Shown here in pieces: positions 13,328 through 23,028 of a stretch of DNA of 64,000 nt. The position numbers and the translations under genes are program-made. Positions within the stretch are counted from its first letter, which is position 1. Each line of letters opens with the position of its first letter. Origin of the DNA: Algoriphagus vanfongensis DSM 17529 (GTDB taxonomy: Bacteria; Bacteroidota; Bacteroidia; Cytophagales; Cyclobacteriaceae); NCBI RefSeq assembly GCF_000429465.1, contig NZ_AUBX01000011.1:427741-491740 (forward strand). The letters run 5' to 3'. The notes beneath the pieces were generated by a model. It was given only the letters and a program-made list of their open reading frames with translations, was not told the origin of the DNA and did not search any database.

Positions 13328-15583
<2,256 letters not shown>

Positions 15584-15616: not shown

Positions 15617-15737
15617 GCTTTTTATTGGTGAAGAACTGTATTTTCGTCACTTATAGATCAAAATCCAGCGCTCATGTAATTGCGCGTCTGTTTTGGATTT
15701 ATTTTTCCATATTAATTTTTAGACCATACGAAGTGAA

Positions 15738-16466
15738 ATGATCAGAGCAATTCTTGTGGATGATGAAAAGCATGCGCTTGAATCATTGGAGATTCTTTTA
15801 GAATTGAATTTTCCGGGCAAGTTTCAAATTCTTGCCAAGTGTAGTTCTGTAGCGCAAGCCTTGCCTGCTATACAAAAATTTGATCCCGACCTTGTTTTTT
15901 TGGATATCCAGATGCCACAGCAAAATGGATTTTCCTTGCTGGAGAGTCTTCCATTTCGGGAGTTTGAGGTGATTTTCACTACAGCTCATCAGGAGTATGG
16001 AATAGAAGCGATCAAAAATGAGGCCTTTGATTATCTGCTAAAACCTATCGATATCGTCGAGCTGAATAAGACTGTTTCTCGGTATCTGAACAAACTTAAG
16101 TCTAAAGAGGATGCCGAAGCCAAATTGGAGAGCCAGCTTCGAGGAAATCAAATGATCAGGCTGAAATCCCAAACGCACGATGATTTTGTCTCACTAGATG
16201 AGATTCTTTACCTGGAAGCTTCTGGCAACTACACAGTTTTTCATTTGGAAAGTGGAGAAAAACTAACCGTCACCAAGCTTTTGCTCCACTATGAAAAGCG
16301 CTTAAAATCCAGCAACCTTTTTACTCGAGTCCATGATAAGATCTTGGTGAATTGTACCAAAATGCATCGCTATGAGAAGAAAGAGGGAATGATGATCCTG
16401 AAGAACGGCGACAAAATCTCTGTTTCTGTCAGAAAGAGTGCAAATCTGAAAGATGGGTTTTATTAA
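15738..16466 (+). CDS. LytTR-family response regulator
   Basis: 242 residues. Receiver domain with acidic pocket (ILVDDE), phospho-Asp in LVFLDIQMP, Thr in FTTAHQEY and Lys in YLLKPID; then a LytTR DNA-binding domain (ILYLEASGNYTVFHL, LFTRVHDKILVN, GDKISVSVRKS). It is the partner of the histidine kinase that starts inside it: the two frames overlap by 14 bases. Its targets are unknown; LytTR proteins bind short direct repeats upstream of regulated genes. Confidence 0.95.
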   Translation: MIRAILVDDEKHALESLEILLELNFPGKFQILAKCSSVAQALPAIQKFDPDLVFLDIQMPQQNGFSLLESLPFREFEVIFTTAHQEYGIEAIKNEAFDYLLKPIDIVELNKTVSRYLNKLKSKEDAEAKLESQLRGNQMIRLKSQTHDDFVSLDEILYLEASGNYTVFHLESGEKLTVTKLLLHYEKRLKSSNLFTRVHDKILVNCTKMHRYEKKEGMMILKNGDKISVSVRKSANLKDGFY

Positions 16467-19440
16467 GAAGCTGCTTTTTCTTTTTTGGATCTTTTTGGTC
16501 CTCGTGAGTTCAGCTCATTCTCAGCAAGTTCCATCTCATAATTTTACCACGGCCGATGGACTTCCCAATAATGCTATTAGATCACTATTGGTAGATTCTA
16601 GGGGGATTTTGTGGATTGGTACTGAAAATGGACTATCTAAATTTGAAAACGGTGTTTTTCAAAACTTCTATGAGGAAGATGGATTGGGTTTTAATAGCTG
16701 TTGGGCTATAGCCGAAGACAAGAATGGAAATCTATGGTTTGGAAGCTATGGAGGGGGGGGGGCAGTTTTTGATGGAAGTGAATTTCATGTTTTTACGGAA
16801 GAAGATGGATTGACTGACAATAGGATCAGGCGATTTTATGCTTATAAGGACCAAATGCTGATTGGTACCGAAGATGGAGTCAGCGTTGCGGATATTCACA
16901 CTTTTGACATTCATCCTATTCCCGCCACTCAAAAGGAAAATGATCTCAATTATACCACTGGCTTTTTTGAAAATGGAGACCATTTGTTTTTTACCACATA
17001 TCGGAGCGGAACTTATGAGCTGGATCTCTCTGGAGATAGTCCCAAAGTTTCTCTTGTAAATGAATGGCTTCCTATTTATTCGATATTTCAGAAAGGAGAA
17101 GATTTATTTTTGGCGGACAAAGGGTCTATCAAAAAAGTACGGCTTTCTGATTTTTTGAATGGAGAAAAGCCTTCTGAAAGCTTCGGGCAGTCAATTGTAT
17201 GGCAAGAGCTAGAAGGTCTCCAAGGAGAAAGTTTTCTGATTGCTGCCAGTACATTTTCCAAAGATGGCGGGGTGTTTTGCTATCGTGATGGAACTTTGGA
17301 AAACCTCAATGCTTGGTTTGGTGTCGAGTCAAAGTTTATTCAGGCTGGGGCTATTGACAGAGATCGGAAGTTGCTTTTTCTTGGCTCTCAAACCAAAGGT
17401 CTTTATCAGGTTAGGCTGGATGATGCGATTATCTATGAGCAACTGGATCAATTGGAGGTGAAGGGGATCGCAGGTGACAGCGTGAAACACGGGATTTTGA
17501 CGAACGAAGGGCTAGAAATACGTGATGCAAAAGGCGATGTGAATTTCGCCAAAGCAGTAGACTTGAAGCAAAAACAAGCAGAATATTACCGATTTTATCC
17601 TTCCAAAATCCCCCAACATAGTGATGGGTTTTTTGAATTGGACCCGAATATACCTGCTGAGGAGATTGAGTTTTACGAGCTACACAAGCAGGAGGGATCT
17701 TTTTGGGCAAATTCGAATATTGGCATTTTTCAGCTGAGTCTGGATGGGAAGCTGCAGAACTATCTCCCCGTACATGCCTATAGTATAGGCTTCACTCCGT
17801 CAGGCGAACTCTTGGAGACAAGTCCTTATGCCGGGGTTCGGATTTATTCAGATCCTGCCAAGATGGAATACAGCTATCATCAGCCAGATCATCCTCATAC
17901 GCCTTTGCAAATAGTGCAGGTGATTACTTCCCAAAATCGGACTTTTTTAGCCTCCGTCTTTCATGGGTTGTATCAGTATGAGCATCAGAATTTTTTGTCC
18001 TACAAAAAAGCCGAGATCTGGGATGAATTGAAGTTTAAAACCTTACATGATTTGGGAGACGGGAAGCTGCTAGTAGGGACAGAGTTTGGAGATCTTTATC
18101 AGATTCAAGTCGAGCCGGAATTCGAAATCTTGAGAAAATGGCCGAAAGAAGAGTTGCTGGGGACTTCAATTCTTTTTATCGAATCCTTTCAAGATGTGTT
18201 TCTTATCGGAACCGAACTCGGTCTTCATATTTTGAAGGGAGATGAGATTCGATTTTGGTCTCAAGGTGGAGGGGATTTTGACCGGGTGTACAAAAATGCT
18301 AAGCGGATTGAGGACAAATTGTACATCGGGCTGGATAAGGGTTTTTATGTCTTGGATATTCCGGGCCTGATATCAAAGGAATATGCTCCAATTCAACTGG
18401 CAATATCTGAGCTCAAGGTCAACGCGAAACCTGTTTCGTCCTCTGAATTTCGTTGGTTTGTCTATCAGGGAGGATCGATGAATCTGGACGCCCAAGAAAA
18501 TTCTCTGGCGCTTCGTTTTCAGCCGAAAGGAAACTTGAATGAAAGCAAACTTCGCTACCGCTATCGTATCAAGCCTGATGCAGATTGGACAGAGTTTGGT
18601 GATGAGCCGCTCATTGAATTGACCTTTTTGCCATCCGGAAAATATAAAGTGGAGGTGGAAACTCACGATTTGTTTTCTGGGAAAATTTCAAAATCCGAGT
18701 TGCTCAGTTTCTCAATTGCGCGGCCTTATTTTTTGCAAGCCTGGTTTTTGATTTTGGTGGGATTGGGCTTGGTAAGCTTGTTTTTCTTGATTTACCAAAT
18801 AAGGATGAAGCAGGTAAAAAATAGATCTCAGCTTAAGGAAAGATTGACTGAGCTCAAACTGGAAGCATTGCAATCCCAGATGAACCCGCATTTTATTTTC
18901 AATGCGATCAATAGCATTCAATATTATATCCTGAAAAAAGACACTTCTCAAGCCTTGGAATACTTGGGTAAATTCAGCCGATTGATCCGGAGTACACTGG
19001 AGCAGAGTAGTAAGAGTCAGGTAACTTTGAAGGAGGAAATCGCCTATCTGACCAAGTACATCGAGGTGGAAAATATCCGGATGGATAATCGAGTTCGGTG
19101 GGAAATTCAGGGGAATGCGCTGGATAAGAAAGATGATGTCCTACTACCGCCCATGCTGATTCAGCCTTTAGTGGAGAATGTATTCAATCATGCCTTTGCA
19201 ATCGAGCATCCTGATCCCAAACTGACGATCACGTATGATTTCTTGCCCGACCATCGTCTACTCTGTATAGTCAAGGACAATGGTACAGGGATGGGGCATT
19301 CGGATAGGGCTCATGAATCCAAAGGCATCCAAATGATTCGTGAAAAGCTCAGCCTCCTGCCCGGCTACTCACCCAAAAGCCTCACGATTCACTCCAGTTC
19401 TAATGGGTGTGAAGTGCGGGTGATTGTTTTTTGTGGGTAA
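16453..19440 (+). CDS. Membrane sensor histidine kinase with periplasmic beta-propeller, LytS type
   Basis: 995 residues. Signal peptide (about 1-23), then two-component-regulator propeller repeats (LPNNAIRSLLVDSRGILWIG, NGNLWFGSYGG, and later LLVGTEFGDL, FLIGTELGL) to about residue 640, a Y_Y_Y-like beta domain, one membrane helix near 765-787 and a LytS-type kinase domain: phospho-acceptor His in MNPHFIFNAINSIQYY, N-box LVENVFNHA and DNGTGMG. It senses a periplasmic signal and phosphorylates the regulator encoded just before it. Odd: a run of ten G at 16753-16762 encodes Gly-Gly-Gly and is a slippage-prone site near the 5' end. Confidence 0.93.
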   Translation: MGFIKKLLFLFWIFLVLVSSAHSQQVPSHNFTTADGLPNNAIRSLLVDSRGILWIGTENGLSKFENGVFQNFYEEDGLGFNSCWAIAEDKNGNLWFGSYGGGGAVFDGSEFHVFTEEDGLTDNRIRRFYAYKDQMLIGTEDGVSVADIHTFDIHPIPATQKENDLNYTTGFFENGDHLFFTTYRSGTYELDLSGDSPKVSLVNEWLPIYSIFQKGEDLFLADKGSIKKVRLSDFLNGEKPSESFGQSIVWQELEGLQGESFLIAASTFSKDGGVFCYRDGTLENLNAWFGVESKFIQAGAIDRDRKLLFLGSQTKGLYQVRLDDAIIYEQLDQLEVKGIAGDSVKHGILTNEGLEIRDAKGDVNFAKAVDLKQKQAEYYRFYPSKIPQHSDGFFELDPNIPAEEIEFYELHKQEGSFWANSNIGIFQLSLDGKLQNYLPVHAYSIGFTPSGELLETSPYAGVRIYSDPAKMEYSYHQPDHPHTPLQIVQVITSQNRTFLASVFHGLYQYEHQNFLSYKKAEIWDELKFKTLHDLGDGKLLVGTEFGDLYQIQVEPEFEILRKWPKEELLGTSILFIESFQDVFLIGTELGLHILKGDEIRFWSQGGGDFDRVYKNAKRIEDKLYIGLDKGFYVLDIPGLISKEYAPIQLAISELKVNAKPVSSSEFRWFVYQGGSMNLDAQENSLALRFQPKGNLNESKLRYRYRIKPDADWTEFGDEPLIELTFLPSGKYKVEVETHDLFSGKISKSELLSFSIARPYFLQAWFLILVGLGLVSLFFLIYQIRMKQVKNRSQLKERLTELKLEALQSQMNPHFIFNAINSIQYYILKKDTSQALEYLGKFSRLIRSTLEQSSKSQVTLKEEIAYLTKYIEVENIRMDNRVRWEIQGNALDKKDDVLLPPMLIQPLVENVFNHAFAIEHPDPKLTITYDFLPDHRLLCIVKDNGTGMGHSDRAHESKGIQMIREKLSLLPGYSPKSLTIHSSSNGCEVRVIVFCG
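16753..16762 (+). repeat. G10 homopolymer inside the sensor kinase gene
   Basis: Ten consecutive G bases about 300 bases into the kinase coding sequence. The frame is intact here. A one-base change would truncate the protein. Confidence 0.9.
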
Positions 19441-19526
19441 AAAATTGACGCTTATTCAGAGTTTTGAGGCAGTTGTTAAACATCCATAAGTCAACCTGTT
19501 CGAATCCATATTTTTAAATAAAAAGA

Positions 19527-20141
19527 ATGATTCCATTAATAGCAGCAGCAATAGCCTTAATAGGCGTAGCAACCGGAGGGTATCACTTTTTTAAAGAGAA
19601 GAACACAATTTATATTACCACCCTTGGCCTTAGAGGTAGCGGAAAAACAATACTACAACTTGCAATAAGGAACATTGCCCCTGAAAAATACCTGACTATT
19701 TCCACTGATGAGTTAGACGAGGTAATTCTAAAAAGAGGAGAGAATTCTATTACAATAAAAAAGGGTAACGATATTTCAGGCGATCCAGCCATGCTGCGTA
19801 GTTACACGACAGAAGAAATCGAAAAATCAGACGTTGTCTTCTGCCTATTTAATGCAAATGATTTTTTGATTGAGAAGGATCACCCAAGGAACGAGGTTTT
19901 TAGCTATTTCACCAAAATTGTAATCCCGAGTATCGATAGTTCTAAGAGAATGTTTTTTGTTGGAACTCATGCAGATCTACTACCTAAAAGAGCGCAAAAT
20001 CAAAAAGAAATAATGGGTCTTCTAAAACAATCCATCAAAGAAAATAATAAGAATTTCGAGTTGAAAGCAGATGCTTTTATTTTCCTTGATCTGACAAAAA
20101 AAGAAGAGATTGAAAAATTAGTGGAAAAACTGTTTAAATGA
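19527..20141 (+). CDS. Small Ras-like P-loop GTPase with N-terminal membrane anchor
   Basis: 204 residues. Residues 1-18 are a hydrophobic helix (IPLIAAAIALIGVATGGY) that should anchor the protein with the domain in the cytoplasm. GTPase motifs: Walker A GLRGSGKT (34-41), a switch-II-like DISGDP near residue 84, VVFCLFNANDF, and a THAD at about 149 in place of the specificity motif NKxD. The family resembles Arf/Ras-like GTPases rather than translation factors. First gene of a tight operon; its stop overlaps the next ATG by four bases. AT-richer than flanking genes, suggesting transfer. I do not recognise a named family. Confidence 0.75.
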   Translation: MIPLIAAAIALIGVATGGYHFFKEKNTIYITTLGLRGSGKTILQLAIRNIAPEKYLTISTDELDEVILKRGENSITIKKGNDISGDPAMLRSYTTEEIEKSDVVFCLFNANDFLIEKDHPRNEVFSYFTKIVIPSIDSSKRMFFVGTHADLLPKRAQNQKEIMGLLKQSIKENNKNFELKADAFIFLDLTKKEEIEKLVEKLFK

Positions 20142-20581
20142 TGGAGAATATAGTTTTTATTCAGCATGAAAAGCTCTCAGGGTCGTCTTATATTTTTTTA
20201 AATGAAGAACTTCTTTCTAAAAGCAAGGCCAGTACAATTAATTTGAAAGAAAGATTTTCACCTAGTGGTTTTAACGCCAAATTAAAAAAAATAAAGCACC
20301 CGAAAACAACGGTGAAAAGGACCCTTTTTGGAAGTTTCATCATCACCGGTTGCTTAAATGAAAAAGATGAAATTGGTAGGACAATGATGTTTAGCTGTTC
20401 TTTTTCAGGTTCAAAAAATGAGTTTGAAAAATACATAATTCATTGTCTCTCTCAGATTAACAAAACCATCAATCCTATTAGCTTATTGCAAATACAGGAT
20501 GGGATCCAAAGATTCACTCTCGTGAAGACTATGGTCGTCACCTCGGCACTCGCAATCACTGCATACTTAATTTTCAAATAA
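20138..20581 (+). CDS. Unknown tail-anchored membrane protein of the GTPase operon
   Basis: 147 residues, not recognised. A soluble N-terminal domain with beta-rich character (FGSFIITGCLN, MMFSCSFSGS) and a single C-terminal hydrophobic helix (VKTMVVTSALAITAYLIF) predict a tail-anchored protein facing the cytoplasm. Basic and Lys-rich. It overlaps the GTPase gene by ATGA and ends three bases before the next start, so it is co-translated and a likely partner or regulator of the membrane-bound GTPase (inference from arrangement only). Confidence 0.7.
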   Translation: MMENIVFIQHEKLSGSSYIFLNEELLSKSKASTINLKERFSPSGFNAKLKKIKHPKTTVKRTLFGSFIITGCLNEKDEIGRTMMFSCSFSGSKNEFEKYIIHCLSQINKTINPISLLQIQDGIQRFTLVKTMVVTSALAITAYLIFK

Positions 20582-20583
20582 CA

Positions 20584-21312
20584 ATGTTGAAAGACTCTCC
20601 TCAATCAATAATTATATTGAATGATTTAGACCATCGTTCTCTAAAATACAATCCAAGTTTTACCGGAGATGATAAGAATGAATTTTTATCCATTGAGAGG
20701 ATGCCGGGAAAAATGAAATTCCCTGGAGGAGTAGAAGTAAATCAAACCTATATCCTTCACCCTTTTTCACCTAACTCCTACTACCCTATCTCTTTTGATA
20801 GAGATAAAATCCAAAGAATGAAAATGCAAAAATTTAGTCAACTAGCTGGACATCTTGGTGCTAAATCATTTCAATCAAAAATTTCCTCTTACAAGAAATT
20901 CGGGTTTAAGATTAATGGAAATGCAAAAATAGAAACCTTTAAATTCTCAGCTGGAGAAAACGCAGGAGCTGAGTTTACTTTTGAAAGAGAAAAAAAATAT
21001 AAATTAAAAAACACTTACTCAGAGATCGATACTCCTGCCTTTAATAAGGCAATTGATTATGCTCGTCAGACAGGCTTAGATAAAGATGAGGAAATGATGG
21101 ATTTCGTCAATTCCCGAAACCCTGAGAATCCAAGTTTACTAACATCTCAAACTATTTCTACAAGCTTGAGCACCGAGTTAAATTTTGCTATAACATATGC
21201 CGCACATTTAAATGCTATGGTTAAGAAACTTAATCTTGGAACTAACATAGGATTGGATGCGAATGTGTTTTTTTTAGAACACATTGATTTGGACATCAAA
21301 ATTCAATTTTAA
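20584..21312 (+). CDS. Unknown 242-residue protein of the GTPase operon
   Basis: Not recognised. No signal peptide or clear membrane helix. The N-terminus (SIIILNDLDHRSLKYNP, MPGKMKFPGGVEVNQTYIL) is beta-rich; a middle section (KAIDYARQTGLDKDEEMMDF) is helical; the C-terminus ends in alternating hydrophobic strands (GLDANVFFLEHIDLDIKIQF). It is Lys-rich and AT-rich like its two upstream neighbours and seven bases separate it from the next gene. Could be the effector or the target-recognition part of the module. Nothing in sequence fixes a function. Confidence 0.65.
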   Translation: MLKDSPQSIIILNDLDHRSLKYNPSFTGDDKNEFLSIERMPGKMKFPGGVEVNQTYILHPFSPNSYYPISFDRDKIQRMKMQKFSQLAGHLGAKSFQSKISSYKKFGFKINGNAKIETFKFSAGENAGAEFTFEREKKYKLKNTYSEIDTPAFNKAIDYARQTGLDKDEEMMDFVNSRNPENPSLLTSQTISTSLSTELNFAITYAAHLNAMVKKLNLGTNIGLDANVFFLEHIDLDIKIQF

Positions 21313-21319
21313 AAAATAT

Positions 21320-21571
21320 ATGCCCACCCACCTCTGCGAATACTGCGGCACTCCATCGCCTTCCATCACCATGCTGACCAGCATGACTTGTCCTCGGCAT
21401 CCTAGGGGAGCTCATCAAGGGAAGCATAAGCTATATGAAGGAGGCCAGATGCAGAGCTATACCTGTAAATTTTGTGGGATCACAAATCCAAGTCTTATCA
21501 ATCTCACATCCATGAAATGTCCCCATCATCCTAATGGACATAGCCATGGATTTCACTCCCCAGCACTTTAA
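21320..21571 (+). CDS. Small two-repeat zinc-motif protein (CxxCG ... CPxHP)
   Basis: 83 residues made of two copies of one ~35-residue unit: CEYCGTPSPSITMLTSMTCPRHP and CKFCGITNPSLINLTSMKCPHHP, each followed by a Gly/His tail (GAHQGKH, GHSHGFH). Each unit offers Cys-x2-Cys, Cys and His ligands, enough for one zinc ion, so it should be a small zinc-ribbon-like protein. I chose the ATG at 21320 because the upstream extension overlaps the previous gene and lies outside the repeat. Function unknown. It is directly followed by the HNH gene. Base composition is less AT-rich than the first three genes of the operon. Confidence 0.7.
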   Translation: MPTHLCEYCGTPSPSITMLTSMTCPRHPRGAHQGKHKLYEGGQMQSYTCKFCGITNPSLINLTSMKCPHHPNGHSHGFHSPAL

Positions 21572-21579
21572 ATAAAATT

Positions 21580-22023
21580 ATGTCCAGACCCTACCATAGA
21601 GGAGAAATCAACAAAGCCTTCGAAAAAGTCAAAGCAGAACTTCACGCTCAAGCGGTGTTAAAAGGTGGAGGAAGAGCTTCCTATCTTGACTCTTATACCG
21701 GAGCACAGCTCTGGGGAGGGGACCCTTATGATTACGATCATATCTATCCCTCAGAGATGGTTCATTCTTTGTATAAGGATCAGTTTTCGGATCTAGAGAT
21801 CGCAGAGATCGTCAATGTTCCTGAGAATATCGCGGTGACTCTTCGAAGTATCAATCAATCAAAGGGAAAGAAGAGCCCAGAATTGTGGTTGGAAGATCCT
21901 CGTCTATTGACTGCTAATTTGGTTGATCTAAACCTACTCCGTTCTGCCATACAAAAAGCAAAAGCAGCAATCGATAGAAAAGTGATAGCGCTGGGAGGGC
22001 AGATTGCTACAGTTATCTACTAA
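21580..22023 (+). CDS. HNH-type nuclease
   Basis: 147 residues. The centre reads DPYDYDHIYPSE, then about 40 residues later SINQSKGKKS: this Asp-His-Ile-x-Pro ... Asn ... Lys arrangement is the HNH (beta-beta-alpha-metal) nuclease motif, with His as general base and the Asn/Lys closing the site. No signal peptide and no DNA-binding domain besides the nuclease. Last gene of the five-gene unit, nine bases after the zinc-repeat gene. It could be a defence effector, a toxin domain or a homing-type enzyme; the context favours the first two, without proof. Confidence 0.75.
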   Translation: MSRPYHRGEINKAFEKVKAELHAQAVLKGGGRASYLDSYTGAQLWGGDPYDYDHIYPSEMVHSLYKDQFSDLEIAEIVNVPENIAVTLRSINQSKGKKSPELWLEDPRLLTANLVDLNLLRSAIQKAKAAIDRKVIALGGQIATVIY

Positions 22024-22117
22024 TTTGACACAGCTGTTTATTTCCAGATATTCTAAAAGTTTAAGATTCTATACTTGTGAACTTTTAGATTGTAATCAAA
22101 TAAAGTATTAGTTTTTT

Positions 22118-22157
22118 AAACGGGTCTTTTTCGGGGTGATAAAAGATCCGTTTTTTT
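22118..22157. terminator. Bidirectional terminator between the HNH and protease genes
   Basis: Stem AAACGGGTCTTTT / AAAAGATCCGTTT (one G-T pair) with a 10-base loop and a T run; it serves the rightward operon and the end of the leftward protease gene. Confidence 0.75.
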
Positions 22158-23028
22158 ATGCCCTTTCAAAAGCAACTCCATGCTCAGTCAAGAATTCCTT
22201 GATCACGCCGACATGGATGCATTCTCCCAAGTGGATAAAAGCATAGTCATTGATCTTTTTACTTTTTCCATGAGCTATGATTTCCTTGTCTTCCATGTCA
22301 AATCCCAGGTGAAGATGTTTCGTGCGGCTTTGCATGCCGATGATTCGACCTTCGGTATCAAAAAGTGGTCCTCCGCTTTGACCTCTCAAGCCGGGAGTAC
22401 TCATCTCGATTCCATACACTTTGCCTCCCTTCCCTCCCAAAAACCGGGTGACCATGCCTTCTATTGGAAACCGTGGAGATCTAGCTGCTCCTTCCTGAGT
22501 CCATTCGAGTACTTGTTTGTCAGGGTTGAACCGGAAATTTGAAAATTCAGGAAAAGGGAATCCAAGCCTGCAAAGCATCGCACCGGGCTGAACAGCTTGA
22601 TCATCATCCAAAAACCTGGGAATAGAATTGATAAGCAGTTTCTCAAAGCCACTGAACTGGATCAGAGCAAGATCATATTCTGGATGGGCGATAAACTTGA
22701 TATTGTTCATTCGATCAACGCAATCCACGAAAGTGATTCGCATTTCAGCAGTGCTTTGCGGAGTTAAGCCTAGTGATTTTGCAAGGTTGTTTTGCTGCTT
22801 GCCATTCATGCCTTGGCTTTGTTGCTGAAACGTAGCCATTTGCTTATTCACCTTGTCTGCATGGGTGATCCATTGAGCGACATGCTTGCAGGTCAAAGCC
22901 CAGCCTTCTTGGTTTACAAAAAATAAGGTGGCCGAACCTCGTTGGATTTGTGGGTTCCCGAAATTTCTGGAAATAGAGTGGACGGCCCGGGTATAGCCGG
23001 AAACTTCCTCAATAGCTTTGACAAACAT
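22156..23028 (-). CDS. Cytoplasmic trypsin-like serine protease
   Basis: 290 residues with a full S1-type catalytic triad: His49 in TCKHVAQW, Asp119 in PEYDLALIQ and Ser218 in RGQSGGPLF. The GxSGGP context and barrel segments (GRIIGMQS) are those of HtrA/trypsin-like peptidases, but there is no PDZ domain and no signal peptide, so it should work in the cytoplasm. A Gln/Asn-rich insert (residues about 65-85) separates the His and Asp. It faces the GTPase operon across a shared terminator. Cytoplasmic trypsin-fold proteases occur in bacterial conflict systems, but also elsewhere; a link with the operon is only positional. Confidence 0.85.
   Translation of the reverse strand: MFVKAIEEVSGYTRAVHSISRNFGNPQIQRGSATLFFVNQEGWALTCKHVAQWITHADKVNKQMATFQQQSQGMNGKQQNNLAKSLGLTPQSTAEMRITFVDCVDRMNNIKFIAHPEYDLALIQFSGFEKLLINSIPRFLDDDQAVQPGAMLCRLGFPFPEFSNFRFNPDKQVLEWTQEGAARSPRFPIEGMVTRFLGGKGGKVYGIEMSTPGLRGQSGGPLFDTEGRIIGMQSRTKHLHLGFDMEDKEIIAHGKSKKINDYAFIHLGECIHVGVIKEFLTEHGVAFERA

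Follow-up and report, generated by a model that had tools for sequence, protein, structure and literature searches.

Organization of the locus

The DNA described here is a stretch of 64,000 nucleotides from Algoriphagus vanfongensis DSM 17529 (contig NZ_AUBX01000011.1), referred to in its whole length as the window, on which all coordinates of the unit are given. At 15738-22023 lies a unit of genes on one strand, encoding a LytTR regulator, a propeller kinase and five proteins designated A, B, C, D and E, the last of which is a predicted HNH nuclease; a terminator and a convergent protease gene follow. A first-pass annotation, made from the letters of the DNA alone, had proposed that A to E and the facing protease form a new conflict or signalling module. 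The space between the two-component pair and the HNH gene is called the slot, and the genes A, B and C, which fill it here, are called the middle. The block is patchy, variable and operon-like, and is no fixed core locus.

14009-15580: icd, left flank of the site
15647..15676, plus strand: weak 9-12-9 repeat of LytTR-like form, ahead of the regulator gene (thirteenth-ranked match of the position weight matrix in the window)
15738..16466, plus strand: LytTR-type response regulator (Pfam Response_reg 1.3e-19, LytTR 1.3e-14)
16453..19440, plus strand: membrane histidine kinase, resident part (Pfam Reg_prop propeller repeats, Y_Y_Y, His_kinase)
19448..19477, plus strand: predicted LytTR-type operator at the slot entrance, ACGCTTATT-N12-GCAGTTGTT (top matrix score)
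19527..20141, plus strand: A, N-terminally anchored small Roc/Arf-like GTPase (by profile, motifs and hydropathy)
20138..20581, plus strand: B, tail-anchored partner (by hydropathy)
20584..21312, plus strand: C, domain without structural match
21320..21571, plus strand: D, 83-residue zinc protein, resident part in Algoriphagus
21580..22023, plus strand: E, predicted HNH (His-Me finger) nuclease, resident part and family marker
22009..22038, plus strand: further LytTR-type repeat, marking the slot exit and spanning the HNH stop codon (second matrix score)
22121..22157, plus strand: terminator hairpin and T-run closing the unit (kept with compensatory changes in 8 loci)
22156-23028, minus strand: trypsin-like protease, outside the unit (by triad motifs)

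The regulator and kinase genes overlap, and the regulator adjoins a kinase homologue in loci of 8 relatives. B overlaps A by 4 bases, and gaps of 2, 7 and 8 bases precede C, D and E, confirming the close rightward packing (overlaps or gaps under ten bases) described in the first pass. Its remark that the first three genes are AT-rich also holds: the guanine-cytosine (GC) contents of A (0.351), B (0.338) and C (0.331) are the lowest three among the 55 open reading frames (ORFs) of the window (mean 0.438, sd 0.031); D has 0.484, E 0.437 and the kinase 0.426.

Proteins A to E

Pfam and NCBIfam gave nothing above cut-off for A-E, and PADLOC gave weak matches for E only; the identities are therefore drawn from profiles, folds and context. 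Motifs and hydropathy agree with the earlier description of A as an N-terminally anchored GTPase and of B as C-terminally anchored. A carries GLRGSGKT, DISG and THAD, and its top hydrophobic stretch begins at residue 1. A profile of eight A sequences matches the Roc domain of LRRK2 (E 3.5e-11, with THLD aligned) and Arf-like proteins. The G1, G3 and G4 motifs (GxxxxGKT, DxxG, and T/S-H-x-D as in Roc) are kept in all eight rows, a Gln after DxxG is found in none, and the protein (204 residues) ends right after its single G domain. By motif and profile, A can be assigned to the Roc/Arf-like small GTPases. The hydrophobic stretch of B begins at residue 128 of 147, and Asp77 and Arg81 are invariant in a seven-row alignment.

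C was left unrecognised in the first pass, and its AlphaFold2 (AF2) model (mean pLDDT 79.4) gave no convincing fold match. The homologue set of C counts 56 proteins, its own sequence included, and the domain also occurs within TPR-like fusion proteins. A C-like domain stands behind TPR-like repeats and ahead of repeated helical units at L134:4123-6060, L135:4909-6942, L136:156-1589 and L137:4159-6210 (L137 being assigned by similarity to L070); these fusions sit in loci both with and without HNH.

As described earlier, D has two CxxC...CxxH zinc repeats and E is HNH-like. The predicted model of E matches HNH/His-Me-finger nucleases and places it in this fold (beta-beta-alpha-metal, with conserved His and Asn), and metal-dependent DNA cleavage is its predicted activity. 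The HNH has no match in phage and plasmid collections. It has been found fused in two ORFs, one with a membrane protein and one with a helical module protein. At L097:5791-6906 a membrane protein carries HNH at its C-terminus in a single ORF, next to a free HNH. Belliella aquatica (L078:6339-6779) has a second, degenerate HNH downstream of an intact copy, lacking the catalytic His and the SKGK motif.

Distribution and insertion site

Three samples were searched: 58 related genomes (the relatives), 395 genomes of the class and 385 genomes of the window's family, with kinase homologues accepted at E <=1e-100 in the first two. Among the relatives, the kinase occurs in 6/58, the zinc protein in 6/58 and HNH matches in 7/58, six of them long and the seventh (G034) covering 29 residues. 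Kinase, zinc protein and full-length HNH are directly observed to share the same six genomes (G000, G017, G024, G025, G030 and G035; a raw count that ignores kinship). The two-component pair, taken in the first pass for a housekeeping flank, is part of the unit. G024 holds the unit at another place, in the order regulator-kinase-middle-HNH-zinc, and G035, assembled in short contigs, has the kinase on one contig and zinc-HNH on another.

The middle is rarer. C was found in the window's genome only among the 58, and A in the window's genome and otherwise as one weak match in G017 (E 8.4e-4, 23% identical along part of the query). Across the 385 family genomes, full-length C is linked to HNH in all three carriers, which goes against the possibility, raised in the first pass, that the genes occur mostly alone; partial C-like matches lie inside longer proteins in four further family genomes, two of them at HNH loci.

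The distance between icd and the protease gene is 41-430 bp in 20 genomes, in which the site is empty, and 5963-6581 bp in four (the window, G030, G017 and G025); the first pass had also considered that the block might be a fixed core locus, and this pattern speaks otherwise. Three of the 27 genomes with the protease are unmeasured (G032 at a contig edge; G045 and G050 with no icd match nearby).

Three kinds of middle occupy this one site: the window has A-B-C, G025 has an IIGP-family GTPase (Pfam IIGP 2e-42 on the copy L067), and G030/G017 have a 195/176-residue protein with a multi-helix membrane protein. The window aligns with G030 DNA at 83% up to base 19480, and homology resumes at 21319, one base ahead of the start codon of the zinc gene, a sharp breakpoint. 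Middles were delimited by hand in 24 of the 40 HNH loci described below, and in all 24 the AT content of the middle exceeds both that of HNH and that of the remaining locus. A. ornithinivorans (L068) has A-B-C at the same site, at 25% identity to the window in A as against 70% in HNH and 62% in the kinase, so even like-typed middles look independently acquired. From the HNH tree, the breakpoint and the composition, we infer that A-B-C is the exchangeable part of the unit.

The protease has the intact triad and no signal peptide claimed for it: the His (CKHV), Asp (EYDLALI) and Ser (GQSGGP) motifs are present and no strongly hydrophobic stretch is found. Its proposed role as partner of the block fared worse. 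Were the five genes and the facing protease one module, the protease would serve as effector or as activator of HNH; the two are convergent neighbours, and a protease-activated nuclease design is described, in the part of PMC12799240 available to us, for Hachiman and AVAST. The published pairs, as far as that part goes, use an MBL-fold nuclease; the protease here is present in 27/58 relatives, and within the genus it has gap as its neighbour in each of the 25 genomes that carry it, block or no block. It occurs at 7/40 HNH loci and was not seen at the other 33 within the fetched flanks. Its presence beside icd at the empty site contradicts a partnership, and we regard a joint module as very improbable. 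Independent of HNH and no member of the unit, the protease belongs to the core genes of the genus.

Operator-like repeats and terminator

A LytTR site consists, in the sections of PMC6193735 available to us, of a pair of 9 bp repeats with a usual spacing of 12 bp. Repeats of this form are observed at the locus, and by domain content and its 9-12-9 repeats the pair can be classed as a LytTR two-component system with predicted operators. When the DNA after the kinase stop codon was scanned in 21 loci, matches between pairs of 9-mers peaked at a start-to-start distance of 21 bases (6.48 vs 4.62 shuffled, z 7.9; simple shuffles, with loci partly related by descent); the other 23 distances gave z of -2.2 to 2.2. 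For the position weight matrix, half-sites were picked by eye in 16/21 loci (none being visible in L080, L083, L088, L094 and L097), and omission of the window's own locus left 15 loci; some registers differ from the best 9-mer pairs of the spacing scan.

With this matrix, the site at 19448, about 50 bp upstream of A, ranks first among 127942 window positions. In the window, L067, L068, L069, L071, L073 and L077, some 50-63 bases separate the end of the entrance repeat from the first gene of the slot; in L135 the entrance site picked by eye lies outside the four best matrix matches. The repeat at the slot exit ranks second of the 127942. Each of the seven other loci at this site has an exit site no more than about 20 bases from where HNH ends; exit sites did not contribute to the matrix. 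Weak sites 52-62 bp ahead of the regulator also occur in L069, L071 and L077.

The terminator between E and the protease, read in the first pass as shared by the two, stands: compensatory changes preserve the hairpin. Within 22009-22157 a promoter-like TATACTTG comes after the exit repeat and ahead of the terminator, with no sizeable ORF between; the segment is possibly a putative short RNA, and covariation supports its terminator hairpin only.

HNH loci across Bacteroidota

With an alignment of the HNH (A1) as query, one genome per species was scanned and 40 loci were retrieved, all of them via HNH and all, by their titles, in Bacteroidota. A GTPase module lies near HNH, that is within four ORFs of it, in 21/40 loci. 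A-B-C is found in seven (L068, L081, L087, L088, L092, L099, L102); the IIGP cluster in six (L067, L071, L076, L080, L086, L105), of which L067 alone was scanned against Pfam and L076 has just the C-terminal part; and dynamin-type proteins in eight (L082, L093, L095, L098, L100, L101, L103, L106). HNH and GTPase membership is read from fold or profile. LeoBC and LeoA stand beside HNH in L093 (8.4e-84 and 4.4e-86) and L095 (7.3e-92 and 1.2e-144), and further neighbours are HerA (L100), FRG (L081), EcsC (L089) and a WYL-type regulator cluster at 13/40 loci (one of its 13 members scanned). GTPases make up 26/227 ORFs within three genes of HNH and 4/256 farther away (Fisher p 5e-6), in a comparison that was not blind.

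The kinase is present in the fetched flanks of 18/40 loci (as a fragment in L082 and on the opposite strand in L080), with L106 added by a wider fetch. The zinc protein is found at 9/40, all titled Algoriphagus, and is absent from L068. On an HNH tree of 36 rows, with five of the 40 loci left out, labels set by hand and six rows labelled 'none', the module labels take 22 changes, compared with a mean of 23.1 after shuffling, and 68/200 shuffles are as low (L078 is labelled dynamin-type from its HerA and transmembrane partners only). Module types thus look shuffled on the tree. Distances in HNH and kinase correlate (Spearman 0.39, 0/2000 permutations as high, 16 loci), as do those in HNH and C (0.63, 8/2000, 8 loci) and in A and C (0.79, 1/2000); HNH and A correlate weakly (0.36, 133/2000, 8 loci). 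Shared taxonomy can yield such correlations.

An unlikely explanation of this pattern is that HNH is a mobility nuclease, homing-like or active in cassette exchange, and the GTPase modules are cargo, with no joint work. That HNH stays constant while its neighbours change would suit it, as would the precise breakpoint at the zinc start codon and the repeat sites at both slot ends. Against it stand a GC content of HNH above that of the middle and near that of the surroundings, the six Algoriphagus rows of the icd-protease site, which form one starred set on the tree, unlike a freely moving gene, and the missing phage and plasmid matches. The fusion ORFs also count against it, as does the enrichment of one functional class among neighbours, in a proximity test biased toward HNH.

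Two smaller families recur at these loci. One of 69-74 residues (cluster 11; L079:5070-5294) occurs at 7/40 HNH loci (L079, L080, L081, L084, L091, L097, L101) and also in L113 and L135; a LytTR-type site precedes its gene in L081 and L084. A UDG-like protein (below cut-off, E 0.0011, L080 copy scanned) lies upstream of HNH in L080 (3411-4103) and directly ahead of A-B-C in L092 (4428-5114).

A possible immune switch

The reading we favour, at slightly better than even confidence, is that unrelated GTPase or membrane modules are swapped in a slot between a constant two-component pair and a constant HNH, forming an immune switch in which the module licenses the nuclease. It would best explain the varying sensor-like modules, the constant nuclease, the operator, the patchiness and the immune-GTPase neighbours taken together. 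Immune function, gating and nuclease activity are predictions that go beyond the observed co-occurrence, position and family membership. In this scheme the propeller kinase would respond to a signal from the envelope, and the operator at the slot entrance would be switched on by the kinase's LytTR partner. A and B would be located at the inner membrane, where B, with its invariant Arg, may tune the GTP state of A, since A is without the usual catalytic Gln. C, together with D, would relay this state to E, which would then cut phage or host DNA.

A more specific and distinctly more tentative proposal is a sensor-controlled socket in Bacteroidota, in which the LytTR pair and two operator repeats delimit the slot, the sensors swapped in and out are GTPases of any fold (Roc/Arf-like, IRG-like, dynamin, dynamin-HerA), and all drive one resident HNH via a shared adaptor, for example the C domain. 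Strains would then hot-swap the receptor part of what would amount to an immune receptor locus.

Several observations weigh against an immune switch. In the class sample the kinase is found in just 5/395 genomes (two at only 31% identity) and HNH in 2/395. Slots without HNH occur: G321 (L115:386-1125) has regulator, kinase, a 161 aa membrane protein and zinc protein with no HNH match, and in G677 (L137) regulator and kinase are followed by a TPR-C fusion, and the 10 kb fetched contain no HNH. Across the HNH loci, the kinase is near in only the 18 of 40 plus L106, the zinc protein is lacking in 31/40, and no recognised GTPase is nearby in 19/40. The proximity test is biased, because the loci were found via HNH and GTPases were called mainly on Walker-A ORFs near it, and the operator half-sites were selected by eye. 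The GTPase-HNH link would be one of gene position, without a protein-level tie, and immunity is argued from the company of neighbouring genes. A sensor kinase is, to our knowledge, unusual in phage defence. Finally, a PADLOC scan of the window at E <=1e-10 matched only single proteins, to two Csa3 models and IetA, each one of 55 members, so there is no obvious defence island. Of the conflict module proposed at the outset, the patchy GTPase-nuclease core holds, with HNH beside Eleos, IIGP, HerA, FRG and WYL genes elsewhere, neighbours typical of bacterial immunity, and the protease partner falls away.

The slot could instead be an envelope-stress or lysis-response locus, answering for example membrane-active antibacterials, in which GTPases remodel the membrane and HNH clears DNA or acts in cell death, unrelated to phage. 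The propeller-type membrane kinase, the hydrophobic anchors on A and B, and the dynamin-like and EcsC proteins of sister loci are all compatible with this; the varying middles, the patchiness and the Eleos, IIGP, FRG and WYL neighbours fit immunity better, and we consider the stress role improbable.

If the immune switch is real, small GTPases, bacterial relatives of interferon-inducible GTPases and Eleos dynamins all rely on one constant nuclease, and how bacterial immune GTPases stop infection becomes directly testable on one effector. A classical two-component sensor would then be tied to the regulation of immunity, and the order kinase - operator - slot - HNH offers a search key for new GTPase immune modules.

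Comparison with known systems

Membrane GTPases are also the core of the dynamin-like LeoA/LeoBC models of PADLOC, which we take to be the Eleos system, and the HNH family adjoins LeoBC-LeoA pairs in L093 and L095. Membership is found at these sister loci; the window's GTPase A differs in being single-domain and Roc/Arf-like, and no PADLOC model matches it at E <=1. Septu, composed of the PtuA ATPase and the PtuB HNH, likewise combines an NTPase with a small HNH, and A-E drew no match from the PtuA and PtuB models at E <=1.

An arrangement with sensor pair, swappable middle and HNH does not appear in the portions of PMC7159879, PMC8195603 and PMC12799240 available to us, to which the following comparisons are also limited. 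The DO-GTPase/GAP1 conflict systems (Kaur et al. 2020, PMC7159879) resemble the unit in a GTPase switch, zinc-bearing and membrane-anchored parts and variable effectors; A has one G domain, however, and here the nuclease is constant while the GTPase varies, and A-E have no DO-GTPase or GAP1 match in Pfam at E <=1. Of the AP-GTPase (Roc-COR) conflict systems (PMC8195603), the unit recalls the Roc domain, to which A is closest in profile, whereas A has an N-terminal hydrophobic stretch and stops after the G domain without COR or LRRs, with no COR Pfam match. The nuclease of the nuclease-protease pairs (Tuck et al. 2025, PMC12799240) is MBL-fold and protease-activated, in contrast to the HNH, fixed site and sensor pair here, where no protease is linked to the nuclease, the trypsin-like one being independent of HNH; what those pairs and our unit have in common is one nuclease gene beside many unrelated immune modules.

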